Assembly: GCA_028717805.1 (NCBI GenBank)
Contig: JAQUNC010000022.1
Coordinates: 1 to 38,948 of the forward strand
From: Atribacterota bacterium
GTDB taxonomy: Bacteria; Atribacterota; Phoenicimicrobiia; Phoenicimicrobiales; Stramentimicrobiaceae
Direction: 5' to 3'
DNA: 38,948 nt
The notes beneath the pieces were generated by a model. That model made no database searches, had not been told where the DNA came from, and worked only from the letters and a program-made list of their open reading frames with translations. Shown in pieces: positions 3,721-28,485 of this stretch (its first letter is position 1; each line of letters begins with the position of its first letter). The translations under genes and the position numbers were made by a program.

Positions 3721-5295
3721 TTAAATAGTATTTATTCCAGTAAATATATACTGCTTGTCTTTATTTTTCTCTTCCCGAATTATCTTCACTGCTGGAGGCA
3801 GATGGTTTAGAATATCCTGAGCGGTAATTCCATCTGGTCCCTTTGCGCAAGCAGCTAAATCCCCGGCTAAACCATGAACTAAGACACCTTCTCTTACTGC
3901 TGATTCTATCGGTAATCCCAGAGTGAACATTGCCGCTATGGTACCGGTCAATACATCACCTGCACCGGCAGTAGCCATGCCGCTATTTCCGGTCATATTG
4001 ATATATATTTCACCAGAGGGTAGACCAATTAGCGAATGGGCTCCTTTCACTACCAGAATAGAACTATACTTCTTACAAAATTCTTCCACTAACCTGAGGA
4101 GTTCTTTTTTTATTTTGGAAACAGATTCCTTAATTAAGCCAGACATTTCACCAAGATGAGGAGTTAATATAGTTGGATACTGACGTGTATTTAAGATAGA
4201 GATATCCTGGCTCAAAGCAGTAATTCCATCACCATCAATGAGCAACGGTTTTTTTATCTCGATAATTAACTTTTTAATCAATGCTTGTGTTTCTTCTTGT
4301 AAGGATAAGCCTGGTCCTATAATAACAATATCCATTTTTTCTGACCATTGCACCAGTTCATTAAAGGCAGTTAAATCAATTGTTCCGACATCCGTTTCTT
4401 TTTGAGGCAGGAATACCACTTCACTTGCTTTGTTGCTGATATAGGGAATGAGAGAAGAGGGAGCTGCCAGACGAGAATAACCACCTCCTGCTTTAAGGAA
4501 GGACAGGGAAGCAAAATAAGGAGCACCATAATAGTTTGGTGCGCCAGCAATAAAGAGAGCATGGCCAAAGGTGCCTTTATGTCCATCAGGTTGTCGCTCT
4601 GGAAGTATCAAGGATGTATTTATATGGATATTCAGTTGGTCATTATCATATAATTCAGGGGGGAAAGAGATATGGCTTACTAAAAGTGTTCCTCCATAGT
4701 GATAACCAGGATAGAGTATGTTTCCTACCTTGGGTAAGCCAAAGGTTATGGTATAGTCTGCTTTTATGGCAATGCCATTAACATCACCAGTGTTACCATT
4801 TATACCGGAAGGAATGTCTACACTGATAATCCGGTTATTCTTTTCATTTATTAATTGAATAATTTGATAGTGGTATCCCGAAATATCTCTGGTTAAACCA
4901 GTTCCAAATATGGCATCAATAATAATGTCATTGGGCATAATTAATGAATTTAATTCTGTCTCAGAAGGGGTAAGAAAGATGGGAAGAGGTAATTTTTCAA
5001 TTATCTGCCAGTTTTTTTGTGCCACACCTTTAAACTTTTCTGGATTATCCAGCAAACAGATCTTGACATAAGCGCCACAGGAATGTAGTTTTCTGGCTAC
5101 TACCAGTCCATCTCCACCATTGTTACCACTTCCGCAGAAAATAAAAAAATGATTCTCCAGGATATTAAATTCTTTTGCTATAGCATAATAAACAGCCAAT
5201 CCAGCGTTTTCCATTAATAGTTCATCGCTTATCTTATATTTCTGGATTGCTTCCCGATCCATCTTTTGCATTTCTGATACTCGGGCAATTTTCAT
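3721..5295 (-). CDS. nnr: Bifunctional NAD(P)HX epimerase / ADP-dependent NAD(P)HX dehydratase
   Basis: This enzyme repairs hydrated NADH and NADPH. The N-terminal YjeF_N domain equilibrates the R and S hydrates, and the C-terminal ribokinase-like domain dehydrates the S form using ADP (or ATP). In the 524-residue product, the epimerase motif GSGNNGGDG is at about residues 55-63. The dehydratase carries NSGMATAGAGD, with GAGD at about 444-447. Reading continues upstream to 5373. The ATG at 5295 has GGAG nearby and begins with MKIARVSEM, the usual YjeF start, so the extra 26 residues are unlikely. It lies downstream of a zinc-ribbon gene and across an intergenic region from the NadD-domain fusion operon and nicotinamidase, which suggests clustered NAD functions. 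Confidence 0.93.
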   Translation of the reverse strand: MKIARVSEMQKMDREAIQKYKISDELLMENAGLAVYYAIAKEFNILENHFFIFCGSGNNGGDGLVVARKLHSCGAYVKICLLDNPEKFKGVAQKNWQIIEKLPLPIFLTPSETELNSLIMPNDIIIDAIFGTGLTRDISGYHYQIIQLINEKNNRIISVDIPSGINGNTGDVNGIAIKADYTITFGLPKVGNILYPGYHYGGTLLVSHISFPPELYDNDQLNIHINTSLILPERQPDGHKGTFGHALFIAGAPNYYGAPYFASLSFLKAGGGYSRLAAPSSLIPYISNKASEVVFLPQKETDVGTIDLTAFNELVQWSEKMDIVIIGPGLSLQEETQALIKKLIIEIKKPLLIDGDGITALSQDISILNTRQYPTILTPHLGEMSGLIKESVSKIKKELLRLVEEFCKKYSSILVVKGAHSLIGLPSGEIYINMTGNSGMATAGAGDVLTGTIAAMFTLGLPIESAVREGVLVHGLAGDLAACAKGPDGITAQDILNHLPPAVKIIREEKNKDKQYIFTGINTI

Positions 5296-5437
5296 TTCCT
5301 TTTCTCCTTCATAAATTCCAGATTTTCCTAATGGCAAGATATTGTTATATATACAGTATGAGTGACTAATCAATTATACTTTCTCACCGGGTAAAAGTAT
5401 TAATTAGAAAAAATCCACTTACTATAATTGCTTCCTA

Positions 5438-5665
5438 TCAGCGATTGCAGGTAGAACAATTTCCACCCTGACAACTGGTACAACCAGAGTTTGCTGAAGA
5501 ATAGCTGCCATTAGTTTTACAATACCCAAAACCATCAAATAACCTTCTAATATTTTTACTCCCGCATCGTTCACAGGAAAAATTACCCTTCTCCATTTCC
5601 TTAATTGAAGCCCTTACATTAAAGACACAAGAGCAGTCCTGACATTTATAGCTATAGTTGGGCAT
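5438..5665 (-). CDS. FmdB-family zinc-ribbon protein
   Basis: A 75-residue protein starting MPNYSYKCQDC, with two CxxC knuckles (CQDC and CERCG) that would bind one zinc, the hallmark of the FmdB putative regulatory family. The C terminus holds a second cysteine-rich patch (CTSCQGGNCSTC), an unusual second possible metal site. The start was moved from 5701 to the ATG at 5665 because the family begins MPxYxYxC and AAAGGAAT lies upstream. FmdB proteins are uncharacterised in most bacteria. A related 102-residue paralogue sits at 38384-38692. Confidence 0.8.
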   Translation of the reverse strand: MPNYSYKCQDCSCVFNVRASIKEMEKGNFSCERCGSKNIRRLFDGFGYCKTNGSYSSANSGCTSCQGGNCSTCNR

Positions 5666-6107
5666 AGCGCTACATTCCTTTCTATTGGTAATTAAGATCA
5701 AATTCAGTATTTGATATTCTCTTGAAGCCTATCTTACTTCTAACACCAGATAATTTTCTTTATAGAATTATTTCCTTTGAGAGTTTTCAGAGAGCATCTC
5801 CCCTGATTACCCTGTCTTTAATATATTATACAATAAATCTCATTTTTTCCTAAGGTATAAAAAATAACAGGCATTATATACCTTTTGTACTTTATTTAAC
5901 TTATTTTAAAGGAATATTTCATATTATTGAAATTTTTTGAAATTCGGATACTATGAAATAATTTTACAACATCTTTCGGTAAAAGATAAAGGTAATAATA
6001 TATATTTTAGAATAGTAAGTGTTGGATTACCAGGCTAAAGATAGTAAAATATTATATAATAATTATAATAATAACAATATATATTATATTGAAACTGTGG
6101 TGAAAAT
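5666..6107. other. AT-rich divergent intergenic region
   Basis: This 442-bp gap separates the minus-strand zinc-ribbon/nnr pair from the plus-strand fusion operon. It holds a good plus-strand promoter at 6022-6050. On the minus strand a TATAAT box (5825-5830) has only a poor -35 at the right distance. If that box is used, the zinc-ribbon gene would have a leader of about 150 nt. I could not match that leader to a known riboswitch. No gene or tRNA is visible. Confidence 0.5.
6022..6050 (+). promoter_or_regulatory. Sigma-A-type promoter for the fusion-protein operon
   Basis: TTGGAT (6022-6027) and TAAAAT (6045-6050) are separated by 17 bp. Transcription would start near 6057, about 50 nt upstream of the ATG at 6108. 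The site lies in a very AT-rich stretch, so chance matches are more likely than usual. Confidence 0.5.
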
Positions 6108-9100
6108 ATGACAGATGTATTAATTAAAGAATTATTTGAAGAGTTATTCCGGAACGAGGCCATGCAAAAGTATGAAATTAACCATGATGATATCCAGTCG
6201 TTAAATGAAGCCCCTGGATTTAGAGAAAAATTATCGTCAATGATAAAGGCCAAAAAATTTCAAGCTATAACTATTTTAGATTTGTTCTTAAACAGAATGC
6301 AGGAAATTGAGCAGATAGAAAGCGCAGAGAAAACATTGAAGGAAATCTACCATTTCTGTCAATACCTGTCCTTCCCGGAGAGCAGGCCAGAATTTGAGAG
6401 GCTACCTATAGCCAAAAGAAAGCTATTTTATCTCTTTTTATTAACGTATCGCTTTTTTCTCCCCAGATACTATCAACATGATAAAAAATCCTTTTTAGCT
6501 CAATATCCCCTTACTTTCTTATCAACTAAAGAAATTAGGGTATTGGAACAACCGGAAGAATACCATAATTTCCTGAATGCCTTTGATTCCCTTTTTGTTT
6601 ATGAAATGATGGCTCTAAGTAGGGAAATCTATGAATACAATACTCTGGAACATATCTGTGGCGTTCATGCTTTAGCTTTAAGCATTGGCCGGCAGATACA
6701 AAAACAGGGACTTCCCGTTGATTTGGGAGTTATTTCTGGTTCTGCTGCCGGTCATGATATTGGTAAATATGGTTGTCGACATAGGGAGCAAGAAAGGGTT
6801 CCTTACCTGCACTATTATTATACCGATATCTGGTTTCATCAGCACAATATTCCTTATATTGGTCACATTGCAGTTAATCATTCCGTATGGGATTTAGAAT
6901 TGGAAAATCTTTCCCTGGAGTCCTTAATTTTAATTTACTCCGATTTTCGAGTAAAGAATAAAGAAAATCCCGGTGAGATGTATATATATAATCTTAATGA
7001 ATCTTTTCAGGTTATCTTAAAAAAACTGGATAATGTGGACGATAGAAAAGAGAAAAGATATCGTAGGGTATTTGACAAATTAAAGGATTTTGAAGATTTT
7101 CTGATAGAAAAAGGAGTAGAGGTAAAAGCCAATCCATTGCCAGGAAAAGATTATAAACCGGTAAGAAAAGCCCGATATTTTGCCTTGCTTCATGGAAAAG
7201 ATGTAATTCAACAAAGCAAATATCTTTCTCTGGAGCACAGTTTTCAATTAATGCATCAGTTGAGGAATGAAACATCCATAAACTCTATTCTTGAATCAGC
7301 GCGTAGCGATGGGAACTGGCAAAATGTGCAAGAATATTTAAGAATTTTTTCTGAATATGCTGCCTATCTTAATCAGAACGAGAAACTGCTGGTATTAAAA
7401 TTTTTGTATGAACAGCTTATTTTCCCGGAGGAAGGAGTAAGAAGAAGAGGTGCTAAACTTATTGGTTATCTCATTTCTAATTTTGACGAGCAATATCGTA
7501 AAGAAATACCAGAAGATATGTGCCTTATTCCCCCTGAAGTAAGAAGTACAGAATTACTGGAAAAATACATAGGTTTATTCTTAGAACCATCATACAAGGC
7601 TTCTGAACTCAGCCAGCGTAGAGTTAGAGATAATTTACCATTTATGATTGAGACCTTATTTGAATATAGTCAAATCAAGCAGCAAGCTCGATATTTAAAT
7701 ATTATTAAAGAGTTTTACCAAAAAAATTATGATCATCAGCTACCCCTTAATCATATTATCTGTTTGTTGCAGACACTAAAAAGTATTCCTGTCTTACCGG
7801 GGGAGACCTTTGATCCGGTCTTTAGCGATTTTCTAACTTACTTTGTTTTTCAAGAGGAATATACCATATCCATTACTGCTCTTGATGTAATGGAGAATAT
7901 GTTAGATAAGATACCAGAAAAAGACACCTTCCGTAATAAATGTTATTCAATTTTAAAAGAAAGGAAAGAATATTCACTTATTCCGGCAGAAAACTATTTG
8001 AAATATAAAATAATCAATAAACTAAACGTTGATTCAACTCTGGTAAATCATTTCCGTCAATATTGCCAGCAAGATGAAGAAAAGATTGATCGAATGTATT
8101 TAAATAATCTTAAATCATCCACTGAGGCTATTATCAAGAAGGTGCAGATTGATATGTTGAAGGAAAGGGCCATAGCAAATAAAGAGGAGACCGTCTATAT
8201 CGCATTACATTTTTGTAATATATTAAAGGTGAGTAGTCATGAACCAGTTCGAAATTATGCTGGTAATGCCCTCATAACTATTATTCCTCATCTGACTGTG
8301 GAGCAGAAGAATGACATATCTATTGAGCTTTTAAAGGCTCTGGAGATTGATGATTATCAATATACTAAATATATTCCTTATTATTTAGGCCAGTCAATTC
8401 CTTTTTTACCCCCCCGCGAGATTGATGAATTCATTGATGATCTGGAGGAAAAGATTAAAATTGCTGATCAATGGAGCTGTACCTTGCTTATTCGTACTAT
8501 GGCTGTGGCAATTAGCCGATATGCTCCATATCAGGATAGATATGCTGAACAAGCATATTTATTTCAAAATAGATTAAATCGGATGTTGGGAATTTTAATG
8601 AATGGACTGGCTCATCATAATTCAATGGTCAAGCGTGTTACCTCAAGAGTCATTGGTAAGGAAATATTTGCCTCACGCCATCTTTCCTTAAATGAAAAGG
8701 AAAAAATATTCAGGCTTATTGCCAAAAAGCTGCTTAATTTGGTTACGCCTATGTCTCAACAGGATAACCTGTTATTTTTTGTTAATACAGTTTCTTTGCA
8801 TCAGATTTATATTTTTATTTCTAATTATAATTTTTCTGAAGGTTCTATAAAGCTTCCGGTTCCCAAATCTATTGCCTTTTTCCCTGGTACCTTTGATCCC
8901 TTTTCTCTGAGCCACAAACAAATAGTAAGAGAAATTGAGAAATTGGGAATGGAGGTTTATCTATCAGTAGATGAATTTTCCTGGTCTAAGAGAACCCAAC
9001 CCCATCTTTTTCGAAAACATCTGATTAATATGTCCATTGCTGATGAATTGAATGTCTATCTCTATCCTGAAAATTTAGCAAGCAATATTGCCAATCCTCT

Positions 9101-11084
9101 CGATTTAGAAGAGCTCAAAAAGCAATTTTCCGACTCTGTAACTTATATTGTAGCAGGGAGTGATGTTCTCTTAAATGCTTCTGCTTATAGGGAAGCTAAA
9201 GAAAATAGTCTAATTTTTAGTTTTCCCCATATTATTTTTGGTCGGAAAGGATATTATTTATCAGAACAAGAGCAAGAAAATTACCAACGAATTATTGAAA
9301 AATTTTCTTCTGGCGTTATTCATCTTAATCTACAAGCTCCTTTCGAAGATATAAGTTCCAGCCAGATTAGGAAGAATATTGATGAACACCGCGACATTTC
9401 AGATTTAGTTGATCCTCTGGTGGAACGCTATATCTATCAAATGGGTTTATATCAGAGAGAACCCCAGTATAAATCAACATTGCAAAAGGTATACACTAAA
9501 GTTGAAGTGGTAGAAGATTTTGATGACTCATTTTTAGAAAAATTGGTCATGGAGGTATTTCCGGAAGATATTAGAGGGAAGGCATTAAAAAGTCTACAAA
9601 AATTTAACCAGAAGCTTAATCCCCGCCTAATTCTTTTACAGGATACCCGAGAAAATGAGAAAATATTGGGATTTGCAGCAGTGCATTGGGTTCGGGCTAG
9701 CGAATTGTATTATGAATTTGAAGATAATATTATTTCCCAGCATATAAGAGACTCTGCCAGTGGCCGTACCATTATCATTGATGGAGTATTTACCAGAGAT
9801 ACTATTCGGAACTATGAGAAGTTTAAAAATTATAAGCAAATAGTTTTAACAGAAGCACTGACCTTCTGTATCAGGAAAGATTACGATTATGCTGTTTTTA
9901 AAAGTATGCTTCCGGAGGTTGACACAAATGAACTGATAAATACTCTGGAACTTTTTGGGTTTACCAGATTATCAATTACTAATACCCGAATTTCAACCAT
10001 AATGACAGTAGATATCAGAAAACCATGTACTATAAGTCTGGATATAGAAACCTTAATTAAAGAACCATTTGTTCACAAATGCCGGATTATGGAGATTATA
10101 AACCTTGCTCGACAGAGGTTACAGAGAGCAATGACCCACCTTTATCCTGGACATTTATTAATTCCTTTTGATATTGACTTAATTAACCAGGCTATTGCAA
10201 CCAAGATATGCCAGGAAAATGGTGTTCCTACTGAACAAAACAATAACAGGCAATTAGGATCCCTGATGTGTGTTCCTTTTGGTAAGATTCTACATAAAAT
10301 GGTGGTACCAAATACTGTCACTAAATCCTTACATACTGACAAAATATTTTCACCAGATATGAAACATTTTAAGATAGATTCTTTTGGGTATTATATGAGT
10401 TTAGAAAATCAGGTTAAGATGATTAAATCTTTTAATAGACCTGTCTTGCTAATTGATGATTTGCTTCATAAAGGTTATCGACTTAAGGCATTACGTCCGA
10501 TATTAAATAAAGAAAATATTAAAGTTCACAAAATAATTGTAGGTTTATTATCTGCCAGAGGCAAAGAATTAGCCATGATTCAAAAACGCCCGGTTGATAG
10601 CGCTTATTTTATACCTAACCTTCGAGTGTGGTTCAATGAGAGTGATTTGTGCCCCTTTATCGGAGGCGATGGCTTATATCGAACAGAACCAGAACAGGGC
10701 AGTTTAGTAAGATCAATTAATATGATTCTTCCCTATGCCTATCCAGTTTTTTTAAAGGAGGTTGATTTAGAAACAATTTATCAGTTTTCGGAAATATGTA
10801 TTGAAAATGCCATTCAGATTGTTAAAGCCTTAGAAGAAGAGTATCAGACAGATTATCACCGCAAGCTAACCTTGCAGCATTTAGGTGAAGTACTGATTTA
10901 TCCACGTTATCCAGATCATGGCAAACACATGGATTACAATCTTTCCCTGTCTACCTCAATGTATTTAGCAAATGACCTGGAATTATTACGAAGAATATGG
11001 GAAAAAAGCACTAAAAACAAGCAGGGCGATTTATTGCGATTTCCTTATTCTCAGGAATTTACTATAGGAAGGGAAGAGTTATGA
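6108..11084 (+). CDS. Giant fusion: HD hydrolase - helical repeats - NadD-like adenylyltransferase - GNAT-like - phosphoribosyltransferase-like
   Basis: A 1658-residue protein. Roughly 130-300 is an HD-type domain (H182, H187, then the H216-D217 pair in AAGHDIGKYG, and a later IYSDF). It resembles YqeK-type nucleotide hydrolases, which often neighbour nadD. About 380-900 is helical and HEAT-like. About 918-1120 is a NadD-type nucleotidyltransferase with GTFDPFSLSH at 927-936 and the closing SSSQIR at 1083-1088. About 1130-1330 looks like a GNAT fold, by pattern only. The C-terminal part carries a PRPP-site-like VLLIDDLLHKG (acidic pair D1450-D1451). No signal peptide or membrane span is seen, so it is cytosolic. 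Its stop overlaps the next gene by 4 nt. Domain identities from motifs are good for HD and NadD, fair for PRTase and weak for GNAT. The substrate is unknown; NAD or nucleotide salvage or repair is inferred from the domains and neighbours. Confidence 0.8.
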   Translation: MTDVLIKELFEELFRNEAMQKYEINHDDIQSLNEAPGFREKLSSMIKAKKFQAITILDLFLNRMQEIEQIESAEKTLKEIYHFCQYLSFPESRPEFERLPIAKRKLFYLFLLTYRFFLPRYYQHDKKSFLAQYPLTFLSTKEIRVLEQPEEYHNFLNAFDSLFVYEMMALSREIYEYNTLEHICGVHALALSIGRQIQKQGLPVDLGVISGSAAGHDIGKYGCRHREQERVPYLHYYYTDIWFHQHNIPYIGHIAVNHSVWDLELENLSLESLILIYSDFRVKNKENPGEMYIYNLNESFQVILKKLDNVDDRKEKRYRRVFDKLKDFEDFLIEKGVEVKANPLPGKDYKPVRKARYFALLHGKDVIQQSKYLSLEHSFQLMHQLRNETSINSILESARSDGNWQNVQEYLRIFSEYAAYLNQNEKLLVLKFLYEQLIFPEEGVRRRGAKLIGYLISNFDEQYRKEIPEDMCLIPPEVRSTELLEKYIGLFLEPSYKASELSQRRVRDNLPFMIETLFEYSQIKQQARYLNIIKEFYQKNYDHQLPLNHIICLLQTLKSIPVLPGETFDPVFSDFLTYFVFQEEYTISITALDVMENMLDKIPEKDTFRNKCYSILKERKEYSLIPAENYLKYKIINKLNVDSTLVNHFRQYCQQDEEKIDRMYLNNLKSSTEAIIKKVQIDMLKERAIANKEETVYIALHFCNILKVSSHEPVRNYAGNALITIIPHLTVEQKNDISIELLKALEIDDYQYTKYIPYYLGQSIPFLPPREIDEFIDDLEEKIKIADQWSCTLLIRTMAVAISRYAPYQDRYAEQAYLFQNRLNRMLGILMNGLAHHNSMVKRVTSRVIGKEIFASRHLSLNEKEKIFRLIAKKLLNLVTPMSQQDNLLFFVNTVSLHQIYIFISNYNFSEGSIKLPVPKSIAFFPGTFDPFSLSHKQIVREIEKLGMEVYLSVDEFSWSKRTQPHLFRKHLINMSIADELNVYLYPENLASNIANPLDLEELKKQFSDSVTYIVAGSDVLLNASAYREAKENSLIFSFPHIIFGRKGYYLSEQEQENYQRIIEKFSSGVIHLNLQAPFEDISSSQIRKNIDEHRDISDLVDPLVERYIYQMGLYQREPQYKSTLQKVYTKVEVVEDFDDSFLEKLVMEVFPEDIRGKALKSLQKFNQKLNPRLILLQDTRENEKILGFAAVHWVRASELYYEFEDNIISQHIRDSASGRTIIIDGVFTRDTIRNYEKFKNYKQIVLTEALTFCIRKDYDYAVFKSMLPEVDTNELINTLELFGFTRLSITNTRISTIMTVDIRKPCTISLDIETLIKEPFVHKCRIMEIINLARQRLQRAMTHLYPGHLLIPFDIDLINQAIATKICQENGVPTEQNNNRQLGSLMCVPFGKILHKMVVPNTVTKSLHTDKIFSPDMKHFKIDSFGYYMSLENQVKMIKSFNRPVLLIDDLLHKGYRLKALRPILNKENIKVHKIIVGLLSARGKELAMIQKRPVDSAYFIPNLRVWFNESDLCPFIGGDGLYRTEPEQGSLVRSINMILPYAYPVFLKEVDLETIYQFSEICIENAIQIVKALEEEYQTDYHRKLTLQHLGEVLIYPRYPDHGKHMDYNLSLSTSMYLANDLELLRRIWEKSTKNKQGDLLRFPYSQEFTIGREEL

Positions 11085-12355
11085 TTTATTACTACCGGTT
11101 TCACAAAAAAATACTTTTTTCCAAACTGAAAATAAATAATTTACAGACGATTGATCCTAAAAATCCAAATATTAAAGAGAATAGATTTATTTACTACCTC
11201 CAGGATAGAGCTTGGCAAAAAGTCAGTCCTTTAGTTGCTCTCATTCATCCTGAACAGATATTGAACAAAAAACAAGAAATAAATATCCTGCACAAATATG
11301 AAGATATGGAACGGGATTTTTCTGATTTTCCAGTTTGGATTATGAAAAAAATAAAAAATAGAGAAGTTGGTCTTTGTAATTATAATTATCCTCGCTGGAA
11401 AGAAAGATTGTGCTGGACACCACCAGAACAATGGAATATTAACATTGTAGGACTGGGCAATGTGGGAGGAACGTTATTAGTTGCTTTGCGTTCTATGAGT
11501 GGAGAAAAAGTCAATAGAATTGGAATATTTGATACTAATGAGAGAGCTATGTCTCGCTGGGAGCAGGAAGCAAACCAGATTATTGATGGTTCAGAGCAAA
11601 GGAGATTGCCTCTGGTGAAGATATTAAAGTCTGAGGAGATTTTTCAGTCGGACCTGATAGTTTTTTGTATATCAATGGGAGTTCCCACGCCGGAGCAAGA
11701 AATTCAGGATGTCAGATTAATGCAACTGGAGGCAAATTCCCGCATAATTAATTATTATGCTCAGAGGGCTAGAAAAACTAATTTTAATGGAATCTTTGCT
11801 GTTGTTTCTGATCCGGTTGATTTGTTATGTCAGAGTGCCTTCTTAGCGAGCAATCTCAGTGAGGAAGGTACATTGGACGGAAAAGGGCTTGCTGCCGACC
11901 AGATTAAAGGATTTGGTTTAGGTGTTATGCATGGTCGGGCAGCTTATTATGCGGCACAAGAAGATAATATGAAGCATTACTTAAGTAAGGGCAGGGTGTT
12001 TGGACCTCATGGCAGTGGTTTGGTAGTAGCTGATGATATAGAGCATTATGACCGGGAGAAATCCTACCACTTAACTGAAAGAGTGTTGCAGGCTAATATA
12101 GAATTAAGAAAAATTGGTTTTAAGCCTTATATAGCACCAGCCCTATCATCAGGTGCTTTTTCCCTGTTAGCCTTAATGGAAGGGCAATGGCATTACAGTG
12201 CTGGATTCTTAGGAGGGATTTTCTGGGGTTCCAGAAATCGTCAAACACCGGTTGGTTTAGAATGGGAGCAATTTTACCTTTCACGCACATTATTCGAGAA
12301 TTTATACCAGAGTTATCATAATTTGAAAAAGCAGGTAAATAGCTTGGAGAAATAG
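11081..12355 (+). CDS. Lactate/malate dehydrogenase-like NAD-binding protein, divergent
   Basis: A 424-residue protein with an unrecognised N-terminal region of about 115 residues and then a Rossmann domain (IVGLGNVGG at 122-130). Later landmarks follow the LDH/MDH order: VVSDPVDLL (D244, where the family usually has Asn), a GVMHGR segment where the family has a catalytic Asp and a substrate Arg, and GPHGSG with H310 matching the catalytic histidine. The histidine and an arginine are kept, but the Asn and probably the Asp are changed, so ordinary lactate or malate oxidation is doubtful. The ATG overlaps the fusion gene's stop (ATGA), and the next gene begins at the following base, which indicates translational coupling. 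It may act on a product of the fusion protein; that is inference. Confidence 0.75.
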   Translation: MIYYYRFHKKILFSKLKINNLQTIDPKNPNIKENRFIYYLQDRAWQKVSPLVALIHPEQILNKKQEINILHKYEDMERDFSDFPVWIMKKIKNREVGLCNYNYPRWKERLCWTPPEQWNINIVGLGNVGGTLLVALRSMSGEKVNRIGIFDTNERAMSRWEQEANQIIDGSEQRRLPLVKILKSEEIFQSDLIVFCISMGVPTPEQEIQDVRLMQLEANSRIINYYAQRARKTNFNGIFAVVSDPVDLLCQSAFLASNLSEEGTLDGKGLAADQIKGFGLGVMHGRAAYYAAQEDNMKHYLSKGRVFGPHGSGLVVADDIEHYDREKSYHLTERVLQANIELRKIGFKPYIAPALSSGAFSLLALMEGQWHYSAGFLGGIFWGSRNRQTPVGLEWEQFYLSRTLFENLYQSYHNLKKQVNSLEK

Positions 12356-13423
12356 ATGAATGAGTTCATTATCCTGATGCCAGGGAAGGTTTCACTAAAA
12401 TTCAGAAAAGTTATAGCAGAGGCGGTTAAAAATTATAAAAACCAGATTTATGTACATGAAAAGGACATTCCATCTTTACAGGACAAAAAAATATTATGGG
12501 CAGTAGAATTAAATGAGTATGGAATTAATATTGGTCTGGATAGAATGTTACAAGCTATAAGTAAAAGAGGACCTAAGGCGTTAATTAATGCAGAAGGGGC
12601 TATTATTATTCAAAGTCCTGTTGAGTTGTGGACCAAATATATCGCCTATCGAATTATATTTCAAACTAATCAATTAGGTTGCCGTTATATAGGACATTCA
12701 GTAATTGAGGCAACTGCGAATCTGGTGAATTTTTTAACCTGGCAAAAAAACTTGAAACTAACTTTAGAGAAAATTTATCAACAATTGTCTTGTGATTTAG
12801 TCTTCAGGCTAATGCAGGATAGAAAAAACATTATCAGTCAACCGGAAATCCTGGTGCTTTATTCCAATCCTAAAAAAAATTCCAATACCATGATGCTCTG
12901 GCAAATGGTTAAGAAAGGCTTACCGCTTAACAGAAGAAGAACGGTAAAGGAACAATATATTGAAAATGGTACTATTGTTGATTGTAGAGGTTGTCTTTAT
13001 AAAACCTGTAAACACTACAGTGAAATGAGTAGCTGTTTTTATGGTGGAATAGTGGTACAGGAAATATTACCAGCTATCGAAAAAGCTGATTATTTAATCT
13101 GGTTATGTCCAAATTACAATGATGCCATTTCTGCCAAGATGATGGCTGTTATCAATCGTTTGACTGTTCTTTACAAGAGGGTGAATTTTCGTCAGAAGAC
13201 CATCTTTGCCATTATTGTCTCCGGAAATTCAGGGAGTGAAAATGTTGCTATTCAGCTAATTGGTGCCTTAAATGTAAATAAGGGATTTCAACTTCCGCCT
13301 TACTTTGCTTTAACAGCTATTGCCAATGATCCGGGTGCGGTAGAAAAAGTTCCTGATATTAGAGAGAGGGCAGCCTTTTTTGCTCAGAATATATACCAGG
13401 AGGTTGATTTGCAGACAAAATAA
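12356..13423 (+). CDS. NADPH-dependent FMN reductase-like flavoprotein with an extra N-terminal domain
   Basis: A 355-residue protein. The N-terminal half (about 1-160) is not recognised. The C-terminal half is flavodoxin-like: the FMN phosphate loop is SNPKKNSNT (170-178), then come cysteines C210, C213, C218 and C227 in the place where iron-sulfur flavoproteins carry CxxCxxC-type ligands, followed by an LCPNYNDAISAKM segment equivalent to the usual SPVY...K region. It could be a flavin reductase or an iron-sulfur flavoprotein. The ATG starts immediately after the previous stop, with GGAGAA overlapping that gene's end, so it is in one operon with the dehydrogenase-like and fusion genes. Confidence 0.75.
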   Translation: MNEFIILMPGKVSLKFRKVIAEAVKNYKNQIYVHEKDIPSLQDKKILWAVELNEYGINIGLDRMLQAISKRGPKALINAEGAIIIQSPVELWTKYIAYRIIFQTNQLGCRYIGHSVIEATANLVNFLTWQKNLKLTLEKIYQQLSCDLVFRLMQDRKNIISQPEILVLYSNPKKNSNTMMLWQMVKKGLPLNRRRTVKEQYIENGTIVDCRGCLYKTCKHYSEMSSCFYGGIVVQEILPAIEKADYLIWLCPNYNDAISAKMMAVINRLTVLYKRVNFRQKTIFAIIVSGNSGSENVAIQLIGALNVNKGFQLPPYFALTAIANDPGAVEKVPDIRERAAFFAQNIYQEVDLQTK

Positions 13424-13470: not shown

Positions 13471-14013
13471 ATGATGAAAGCATTATTAATTATTGATGTG
13501 CAGAATGACTTTATAAAAGGTGGAGCTTTGGCAGTACCGGATGCCGAGCAGGTTACCCCGGTTATTAATGAGTTAATGGATAAATTTGATTTAGTGCTGG
13601 CAACACAGGACTGGCATCCTCAAAAATCTGTTCATTTTAAAAAGTGGCCAATACATTGTGTTGCCGGAAGCAAAGGTGCTGAATTTCCTCCTGAACTCCA
13701 TAAGAAAAAAATTAATCAAGTCTTTCATAAAGGAACCGGAGACCGGGATGATGGATATTCAACCTTTGAGGCTACAAACATTAAGCCTGTTGATTATCTT
13801 AAAAAAAGAGGGATTTCCGATCTTTATCTCTGTGGAATTGCCCTGGAGTATTGCGTCAAATCCTCAGCCTTAGATGCTTTAAAGGAGGGCTTTAAGGTCT
13901 TTCTAATCAGAGATGCTATTGCCAATTTTTCTAAAGAAGAGGAAAAAATTGCCGGGGAGTATGCAGAATTACAGGGAGCAGGTGCCCAGATAATAACATC
14001 CGCTCAGGTCTAA
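13471..14013 (+). CDS. pncA: Nicotinamidase (isochorismatase family)
   Basis: This enzyme hydrolyses nicotinamide to nicotinate for the Preiss-Handler route of NAD salvage. The 180-residue protein keeps the catalytic triad (D9 in IIDVQND, K87 in FHKGTGD, C128 in ALEYCVKS) and metal ligands D47, H49 (QDWHP) and H62. The length and the DGYSTFE segment fit PncA better than other isochorismatase-like hydrolases. A GGAAGGAG site precedes the ATG; the second codon is also ATG, so the start may be 13474. It follows the flavoprotein by 47 bp and probably belongs to the same transcription unit, tying that operon to NAD metabolism. Confidence 0.93.
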   Translation: MMKALLIIDVQNDFIKGGALAVPDAEQVTPVINELMDKFDLVLATQDWHPQKSVHFKKWPIHCVAGSKGAEFPPELHKKKINQVFHKGTGDRDDGYSTFEATNIKPVDYLKKRGISDLYLCGIALEYCVKSSALDALKEGFKVFLIRDAIANFSKEEEKIAGEYAELQGAGAQIITSAQV

Positions 14014-26881: not shown

Positions 26882-27892
26882 TTGGTAATATTGAAAGATA
26901 TAGCAGTTGAAGTGGAGAGTATAATTGCAAAAATCAGGCTAGTTAGCTCCGAGAAAGGAGTTATTGTTGCTTTTTCCGGGGGTTTGGATAGCACTGTAGT
27001 ACTTTTTTTAACCAGACAGGCTCTGGGACAAGAAAGGGTAATGGCCGTTAATGTAGATTTTGGATTATTCACTTATGATTCAGCGCGTCAGAACGTAAAT
27101 GAGCTATGTGCAGAAATGCAGGTAAAATTAGAGAGGATTTCTGGAGAGCTCTATCAAAGGCAAACGATGAAAGGCGGACCGGACTGTAATTTATGTACCA
27201 GAAAAATAAAATTAGGTTTAATAAAAGCCTATACCAGCCATAAACTTGTTTTTACCGGTTCCAATCAGAGCGATAGCTGGGGAAAATATGGCACAGATTT
27301 TTCTGCTGGTTATTATGCCCCTTTGTTTCACTATTCCAAAGGGGAAATAGGAAAGATAGCGGATTATTTAAACCTGAAGATTAAACGAATTGGAGAAAAT
27401 GTTTTTCGAGAAGGCTGTAAATTAAAACATTTACTCAAACCTCTGATTAATCTTTCCTATCATGGACAAGCAGTCAGTTTAGCCAATGAAATTTTATTGC
27501 AGCAAATAAGAGAATTAAACCTTAATACCGAAATAGCCAATGTAAAGGTAATTGGTCCTTTAAATAAAAATATTGCCCTTATCAATATTTTTCCTCTCCC
27601 GGCTAACGACAGGCATTTAAAAATAATTTATAATAATATTGCTGGTGTTAAGGAGATTGATAGTTGTTCTATTGTTAATCAACCATTGCAACTAACCATC
27701 AAGGCAGACAAGGGTCAATTCAATAACTTACGTTCACGTTACTGGATTGAGCAGGGCAGGTTACAGCCTGAATTTGCCTCTCCGCTCAAATTTAGATGGT
27801 TATTGACTACTAACAGCAGGTTGAAAACATTTCAGGTTGTTGATTATAATTATATAAAGGATAATGATAGCTATATCGTAAAAAAGAGGTAA
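26882..27892 (+). CDS. PP-loop ATP pyrophosphatase superfamily protein, uncharacterised
   Basis: A 336-residue protein with the PP-loop motif SGGLDS (32-37) in VAFSGGLDSTVV, which binds ATP and activates substrates by adenylation, as in LarE, ExsB and tRNA-thiolating enzymes. A CNLC pair (C102, C105) lies after the first half of the domain, near the place where sulfurtransfer or zinc cysteines occur in LarE-like proteins. FTGSNQSDSWGKYG resembles the LarE GTNxDD region. The C-terminal 130 residues are unlike LarE and unassigned. The start is TTG 26882 or TTG 26891; both are near AAGG/CAGG sequences. The reaction is unknown; a sulfur-transfer role is a guess. Confidence 0.75.
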   Translation: MVILKDIAVEVESIIAKIRLVSSEKGVIVAFSGGLDSTVVLFLTRQALGQERVMAVNVDFGLFTYDSARQNVNELCAEMQVKLERISGELYQRQTMKGGPDCNLCTRKIKLGLIKAYTSHKLVFTGSNQSDSWGKYGTDFSAGYYAPLFHYSKGEIGKIADYLNLKIKRIGENVFREGCKLKHLLKPLINLSYHGQAVSLANEILLQQIRELNLNTEIANVKVIGPLNKNIALINIFPLPANDRHLKIIYNNIAGVKEIDSCSIVNQPLQLTIKADKGQFNNLRSRYWIEQGRLQPEFASPLKFRWLLTTNSRLKTFQVVDYNYIKDNDSYIVKKR

Positions 27893-27942: not shown

Positions 27943-28485
27943 ATGAATAAAGAATTAGGTTTTGTCAATCCAGAAGAAGTATTAAAAAATGCGGTGGAAT
28001 TGATGGCTTTATCAGCCCGAACAGCACCGAAGGCTGCAGGCAAGGATTTTGTGGTAATTAAGGTAATCAGTGGAGATGAAGTAATCAGGCTGGGAGAGGC
28101 AATGATTCATTATGGTATAGAGCAAAACAAGCGCAATTTTGATCGTGATGGTGAAAATGTGAAAAATTCTCCCGTAGTGTTATTGATTGGCTTAAAAGAT
28201 TCCCAGACCTTGGGATTGGATTGCGGGGCTTGTGGATTTGACCAGTGTTCCAAATGCCAGACCCATAAAGGACCGGAATTTGATGGTCCTCAGTGTGCTT
28301 TACATATTTTAGATATGGGCATTGCTATTGGTTCAGCAGTAAAGGCGGCCGCTATCCTGGGAATTGACAATAGAATCATGTATCGGATAGGAGTGGTTGC
28401 CAAGAAGGCTGGTTTTATTGAAGCCAGTTTTGTGATGGGTATTCCATTTTCCGTAACCGGTAAAAATATTTATTTTGACCGATAG
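27943..28485 (+). CDS. DUF2148 ferredoxin-like domain protein
   Basis: A 180-residue protein of the DUF2148 (COG4739) family found mainly in anaerobes. Its cysteine cluster LDCGACGFDQCSKC (C94, C97, C102, C105) plus C118 could bind an iron-sulfur cluster. The surrounding GIAIGSAVKAAAILGIDNR and MGIPFSVTGKNIYFDR segments are typical of the family. AAAGGAG precedes the ATG. It follows the PP-loop gene by 50 bp in the same direction. Function is unknown; the family is only predicted to be redox-active. Confidence 0.85.
   Translation: MNKELGFVNPEEVLKNAVELMALSARTAPKAAGKDFVVIKVISGDEVIRLGEAMIHYGIEQNKRNFDRDGENVKNSPVVLLIGLKDSQTLGLDCGACGFDQCSKCQTHKGPEFDGPQCALHILDMGIAIGSAVKAAAILGIDNRIMYRIGVVAKKAGFIEASFVMGIPFSVTGKNIYFDR

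Follow-up and report, generated by a model that had tools for sequence, protein, structure and literature searches.

A five-domain HD, NadD-like and phosphoribosyltransferase fusion inherited with two redox genes in Atribacterota and Clostridia

The window considered here, a 38,948-nucleotide stretch that is contig 22 of an Atribacterota genome (2.27 Mb, 97% complete), carries a gene for a very large protein in which a YqeK-like HD domain, a HEAT-repeat solenoid, a NadD-like adenylyltransferase domain, a GNAT-fold domain and a type I phosphoribosyltransferase (PRT) domain are joined in one chain, followed by the genes of a protein related to lactate and malate dehydrogenases (LDH/MDH) and of a flavin mononucleotide (FMN) reductase-type flavoprotein. 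This three-gene set is ancient and obligate, and the module is read here, with a probability of roughly 0.4, as a nucleotide-assembly, editing and redox system that would serve a cofactor or signal other than the housekeeping nicotinamide adenine dinucleotide (NAD). A set so strictly inherited, one of whose proteins unites four domains of nucleotide-enzyme type in a chain of 1600 residues, points to a piece of core nucleotide or redox metabolism that is still unassigned.

The fusion, the LDH-like protein and the flavoprotein are found together in 21 of 243 Clostridia genomes and the remaining 222 hold none of them, with no exceptions; such identical sets would have a chance probability of about 1e-30 if the genomes were independent, the true figure being larger through shared ancestry. 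The co-occurrence of the three genes in other genomes, by which the original prediction was to stand or fall, is therefore strict, and the strong fusion matches in these 21 genomes are multi-domain frames of about 1600 residues, except for one that is split at a contig end. A scan of the species genomes of the Genome Taxonomy Database (GTDB) confirmed 106 loci. The best 80 of the 106 are mostly from Clostridia (Clostridium, Alkaliphilus, Caloramator, Fonticella, Tissierella, Fusibacter, Anaerotignum, Acetoanaerobium and others), with 30-50% identity over nearly the whole protein, so that the hosts include, besides uncultured Atribacterota, culturable genera such as Alkaliphilus, Caloramator, Tissierella and Fusibacter. 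Within these 80 loci the LDH-like start lies no further than 50 nt from the fusion end in 55 of 72 cases, and the flavoprotein gene lies within 50 nt of the LDH-like gene in 52 of 59. The divergence of the three proteins is correlated (r 0.75-0.87, not corrected for the species tree). In Atribacterota one order has the fusion, which 19 of its 24 genomes carry, counting that of the window: as one long frame of about 1600-1660 residues in 15 of the others and as pieces at contig ends in 3 more. It was found in no further genome among the 50 of Atribacterota that were searched and is missing from 4 genomes of the same genus, absences that carry some error in collections with one genome per species and many metagenome-assembled genomes. 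In a midpoint-rooted tree built with a quick method, the Atribacterota fusions form one fully supported clade among the Clostridia copies, which suggests a single transfer, with a direction that the tree does not fix. Three loci (L118, L120 and L129) have no partner gene nearby despite ample flanking DNA, and two genomes contain two fusion copies each but a single LDH-like and a single flavoprotein gene.

The three open reading frames, with a 4-nt overlap (ATGA) between the fusion stop and the LDH-like start and 0 nt between the LDH-like stop and the flavoprotein start, were found exactly as the original prediction had described them (Table 1), and purine-rich ribosome sites of the AGGA/GGAG type, read in the DNA, precede both partner starts. 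The fusion is no assembly accident, because its homologues read as one long frame in Atribacterota and tens of Clostridia genomes carry them undivided over their full length. No Rfam element was found, and the matches of a promoter and terminator scan were no more numerous than expected from shuffled sequence.

Table 1. Positions in the window of the three module genes, the segments of the fusion and the two genes flanking the module
Feature	Position	Strand	Basis
Five-domain fusion gene (1658 residues)	6108..11084	+	Open frame; homologues in Atribacterota and Clostridia
N-terminal region, residues 1-149, no family assigned	6108..6554	+	Within fusion alignments; conservation poor before residue 130
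YqeK-like HD metal-dependent phosphohydrolase domain, residues 150-345	6555..7142	+	Ligands H182, H216-D217, H235, H258, D279
HEAT-repeat solenoid, residues ~345-915	7140..8852	+	Pfam HEAT in 16/19 members, best E 1.4e-6
NadD/NMNAT-type adenylyltransferase domain, residues 912-1122	8841..9473	+	PGxFDPF[ST]L[SG]H936K, GSD1019V, SSxxIR1088, Y1027
GNAT-fold domain without Q/RxxGxG/A coenzyme A (CoA) loop, residues 1122-1312	9471..10043	+	Strand/helix order of the model; Foldseek acetyltransferase matches
Type I PRT domain and C-terminal helices, residues 1312-1658	10041..11081	+	Phosphoribosyl pyrophosphate (PRPP) loop LIDDxLxKGYR; D1450, G1456, R1458 invariant
LDH/MDH-fold oxidoreductase (424 residues)	11081..12355	+	Pfam Ldh_1_N; PDB LDH E 3e-10; alignment
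FMN-reductase-type flavoprotein (355 residues)	12356..13423	+	Pfam FMN_red 1.7e-18; four invariant Cys
Nicotinamidase (PncA), after the module	13471..14013	+	PRK11609 E 4.5e-40, below curated cut-off; neighbours
NNR, bifunctional NAD(P)HX epimerase/dehydratase (YjeF_N and Carb_kinase)	3721-5373	-	Divergent, upstream of the fusion

TIGR00482, the canonical NadD family, matches the NadD-like domain at E 3.6e-15 with 56.5 bits for the window copy (56.5-60.5 overall), below the cut-off of 112.45, and a PDB profile match to the segment is Plasmodium nicotinate mononucleotide (NaMN) adenylyltransferase (5llt, E 4e-9). An AlphaFold model of residues 912-1658 has a mean local confidence (pLDDT) of 89.8 and a predicted template-modelling score (pTM) of 0.88, and its first 50 Foldseek matches in the PDB are NadD/NMNAT enzymes only (E to 3.5e-9, TM 0.67-0.82); the alignments behind the structure models comprise 42-55 sequences, while residue conservation was counted over 79 proteins. 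With canonical NadD the domain shares the fold, the G-x-D motif (GSD1019, kept in 77-78 of 79) and an intact SSxxIR (S1083, S1084 and R1088 in 78 each), whereas the first of the two signature motifs that had been claimed for it is non-canonical, HxGH being replaced by [S/T]-L-[S/G]-H with Ser (53/79) or Thr (26/79) in place of the first His and only the last, H936, kept (78/79). A further difference lies in the substrate pocket, where the genome's own canonical NadD reads GADAFLEIDSW and the fusion reads GSDVLLNASAY. The Trp of NadD enzymes stacks on the pyridine, and the exchange of this residue for Tyr1027, present in all 79 proteins, hints at a different substrate.

The PRT domain, weakly matched by Pfam (18 of 27 members, best E 0.0016), is much clearer in its separate AlphaFold model (pLDDT 90, pTM 0.87), for which all 50 PDB matches listed have the type I PRT fold, the best being Bacillus subtilis xanthine PRTase (E 4.6e-6), followed by APRT, UPRT, HPRT and PurR, so that what had been described as a domain with a PRPP motif is borne out as a type I PRTase fold. 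In its PRPP loop D1450 is found in 79 of 79 proteins, the second acidic position is Asp in 64, Asn in 12 and Thr in 3, and the usual TG is KG. For the region between the NadD-like and PRT domains, sequence searches alone gave no support for the GNAT family that had been suggested, but the strand-helix order of the model and many acetyltransferase matches in a viral structure library searched with Foldseek do support that fold; no GNAT appears among the 50 PDB matches listed for the same model, all of which are NadD/NMNAT. The CoA pyrophosphate loop is absent, and the corresponding loop 1229-1242 is gapped and variable in the 79-sequence alignment.

The HD domain is supported by sequence, with Pfam HD matches in 25 of 27 fusion members (best E 1.5e-5), YqeK-like spacing and six metal-ligand positions that all align with the YqeK proteins of the same order in a profile comparison (E 7e-4, with a probability of only 27%). 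Five of the ligands are invariant in 79/79 sequences and H182 is kept in 78, the remaining one having a gap; TIGR00488, the YqeK family, did not match the window fusion even at E 1, while the genome's true YqeK reaches 114.5 bits (cut-off 70). The long helical region that had been noted after the HD domain is a HEAT-repeat solenoid.

Taken together, the NadD, GNAT and PRT folds are modelled, the HD domain is recognised by sequence and most catalytic residues are conserved, so that absent or catalytically dead domains, the outcome that would have spoken against the original prediction, were not seen. It is decidedly unlikely that the NadD, GNAT and PRT domains serve mostly for binding, without catalysis, around an active HD phosphohydrolase. 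The missing CoA loop, the lost first His of HxGH and the replaced Thr of the PRPP loop would agree with such an arrangement, as would the divergent fusions of L120 (7947-12863) and L129 (7890-12260), which keep the HD and PRT residues and have altered NadD residues (D1019Q/S1083L/R1088K and H936Q/D1019E/S1084A, respectively). Nevertheless, H936, SSxxIR, GSD and D1450/G1456/R1458 are near-invariant, as catalytic residues are expected to be, and Ser or Thr at the first-His position is CoaD-like, CoaD itself carrying Thr there.

Of the two partner proteins, the LDH-like one shares with L-lactate and malate dehydrogenases the Rossmann motif (GLGNVGG) and the equivalents of Arg109, Arg171 and His195 (R212, R286 and H310, the last in GPHG), which are invariant, so that 3 of 5 catalytic residues are kept; it differs in that Asn140 is replaced by Asp (Asp244, in SDP) and Asp168 by Met (Met283), the mapping of positions 168, 171 and 195 having been made by eye, in an extra N-terminal region and in scores below the curated cut-offs. 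The flavoprotein resembles NADPH-dependent FMN reductases and iron-sulfur flavoproteins in an FMN_red domain above the Pfam cut-off and in four clustered Cys, invariant and located in the FMN_red half (C210-x2-C213-x4-C218-x8-C227), which suggest but do not establish an Fe-S cluster; the x2-x4-x8 spacing and a separate N-terminal domain of about 160 residues set it apart, and no PDB sequence relative was found at E 0.001.

The ordinary synthesis of NAD is encoded elsewhere in the genome. An archaeal-type nicotinate phosphoribosyltransferase (NaPRTase; NF006415) lies on contig C5 (483 bits, cut-off 243), a canonical NadD (183 bits, cut-off 112) is adjacent to the separate YqeK on contig C3, and NadE reaches 269 bits against a cut-off of 64; nicotinamidase, NaPRTase, NadD-YqeK and NadE being encoded apart, ordinary nicotinate salvage is independent of the fusion. 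Two simple assignments are thereby rejected: that of the fusion as housekeeping NadD, in view of the nadD-yqeK pair on C3, and that of its PRT domain as the missing NaPRTase that the absence of PF04095 from 41 of 41 genomes might have implied, in view of the protein on C5. In the ten genomes of family f1 considered, nothing but a NaPRTase-type protein of some 350 residues matches the QRPTase (quinolinate phosphoribosyltransferase) profile, and a strong NadC match is lacking. In the sister family f2, by contrast, most genomes give a NadC-like match that scores near 230 bits; family f1 may be dependent on nicotinate salvage.

A second, specialised route to ordinary NAD, in which the PRT domain would make nicotinamide mononucleotide (NMN) or NaMN, the NadD-like domain NAD or nicotinate adenine dinucleotide (NaAD), the HD domain would clear mispaired dinucleotides and the partners would repair damaged NAD(P)H, is a doubtful explanation. 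The combination of NadD with YqeK has a precedent in proofreading (PMC9426524), and in the window's family a nicotinamidase gene follows and NNR precedes the module. Both neighbours, however, are confined to one Atribacterota family: nicotinamidase is directly downstream in most f1 genomes examined (in G007 it is not at that place) and was not seen in f2 or Clostridia loci, while NNR keeps its upstream place in several members of the window's family, so that the two were rejected as general members of the module. Moreover, nicotinate salvage is already complete in the genome, the PRT fold is type I and nearest to purine PRTases, whereas NaPRTase and NAMPT have the type II PRT fold, and the pyridine-stacking Trp has given way to an invariant Tyr.

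A signalling dinucleotide, Ap4A-like (diadenosine tetraphosphate-like) or another alarmone, that the fusion would make and break to sense stress or redox state, its LDH-like and flavoprotein partners acting as redox readers, is unlikely. Synthesis and hydrolysis are united in one chain in RelA/SpoT, as they would be here, and the HEAT solenoid and the degenerate GNAT could serve as sensor modules. As cited in PMC9426524, YqeK itself hydrolyses Ap4A. Signals of the Ap4A type nevertheless need no PRTase, and the loci share no constant receptor or regulator gene among their neighbours. Finally, a role in anti-phage defence or another conflict is highly improbable. A large multidomain protein with a patchy distribution across Clostridia and one weak PADLOC match (ShosT, E 0.004, on the PRT loop) could be adduced for it; inheritance, however, is largely clade-wise and near-fixed in one Atribacterota order, the flanks are mostly housekeeping genes and no phage or virus copies were found. 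A phage, plasmid or defence origin is likewise unsupported, the sole 'plasmid' match being a 2.6-Mb Acetoanaerobium record.

A system for nucleotide assembly, editing and redox conversion outside housekeeping NAD synthesis could operate as follows. The PRT domain would join a base-like substrate to PRPP, and the NadD-like domain would adenylate the resulting nucleotide to a dinucleotide or carry out a related transfer of a nucleoside monophosphate. The YqeK-like HD domain would hydrolyse wrong or surplus product, a proofreading role proposed because the YqeK part of a mycoplasma NadD-YqeK protein hydrolyses erroneous NaAD analogues (PMC9426524). The HEAT solenoid would keep the catalytic stations together, the GNAT-fold domain would more probably serve in binding or as a structural element than act as an acetyltransferase, and the LDH-like enzyme and the Cys-containing flavoprotein would perform redox steps on an intermediate or use the product. 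The PRT, NadD and HD stations are deduced from fold and residue conservation, and the order of steps, the substrates and the products are inferred. The original proposal fits the domain set, in that these parts could make, transfer and cleave a nucleotide or dinucleotide while the partners add redox steps; transfer is its weakest piece, the GNAT domain lacking the CoA pyrophosphate loop. In a more specific form, which can be offered tentatively, the product would be a hitherto unknown nucleotide or dinucleotide cofactor: the type I PRTase would build it from a non-pyridine base, the NadD-like domain would adenylate it, the HD domain would edit it and the partners would switch its redox state. 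In favour of the general proposal, the divergent fusions of L120 and L129, whose loci lack partner genes nearby, are altered in NadD residues. Several observations weigh against it: no substrate can be read from the sequence, the altered HxGH, the Trp-to-Tyr change in the nicotinate pocket and the Lys that replaces Thr in the PRPP loop could equally indicate lowered activity, L118 keeps all NadD residues with no partner genes within 8 kb, and no pathway gene other than the three is constant near the module, so that neither a supplier of the base nor a user of the product is pointed to.

Other neighbours are specific to particular clades. L-serine dehydratase, Nfn-type genes, glutamate dehydrogenase and rlmN (names assigned by eye) were rejected as functional partners for this reason. 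L-serine dehydratase beta/alpha-like genes, also named by eye, stand directly upstream of the fusion in seven Tissierella-type loci, where the second of them ends at or slightly inside the annotated fusion start, and a lipoprotein-like gene of about 160 residues precedes the fusion in eight loci of one Clostridiaceae group. Elsewhere in the window, inspection of the DNA by eye showed a short Cys-rich, zinc-ribbon-like frame that lies between NNR and the fusion (approximately 5434-5680, minus strand), and a 180-residue Cys-containing protein with no NCBIfam match (27943-28485, plus strand) lies beside an ATP-pyrophosphatase-type gene (26882-27892).

With regard to known systems, the five-domain architecture and its partners have no description in the open-access literature searched, and Pfam and NCBIfam name only generic domains; within that literature the fusion's description as undescribed holds, although a fusion of YqeK-type HD and NadD as such is known from mycoplasmas (PMC9426524). 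Compared with B. subtilis xanthine PRTase (1y0b) and other type I PRTases, its best PDB matches, the PRT domain shares the fold and a largely acidic PRPP loop and differs in the DDxLxKGYR form of that loop, in an extra C-terminal helical part and in an identity of 16%. The closest precedent is the mycoplasma NadD-YqeK protein (JCVISYN3A_0380), in which both domain types are likewise in one chain and YqeK acts in NAD proofreading (PMC9426524). In the window fusion, the order of the two domains is reversed, some 570 residues separate them, HEAT, GNAT and PRT domains and obligate redox partner genes are added, and the protein is not the sole NadD of its genome, so that the NadD-YqeK editing theme would here be extended to a far larger machine.

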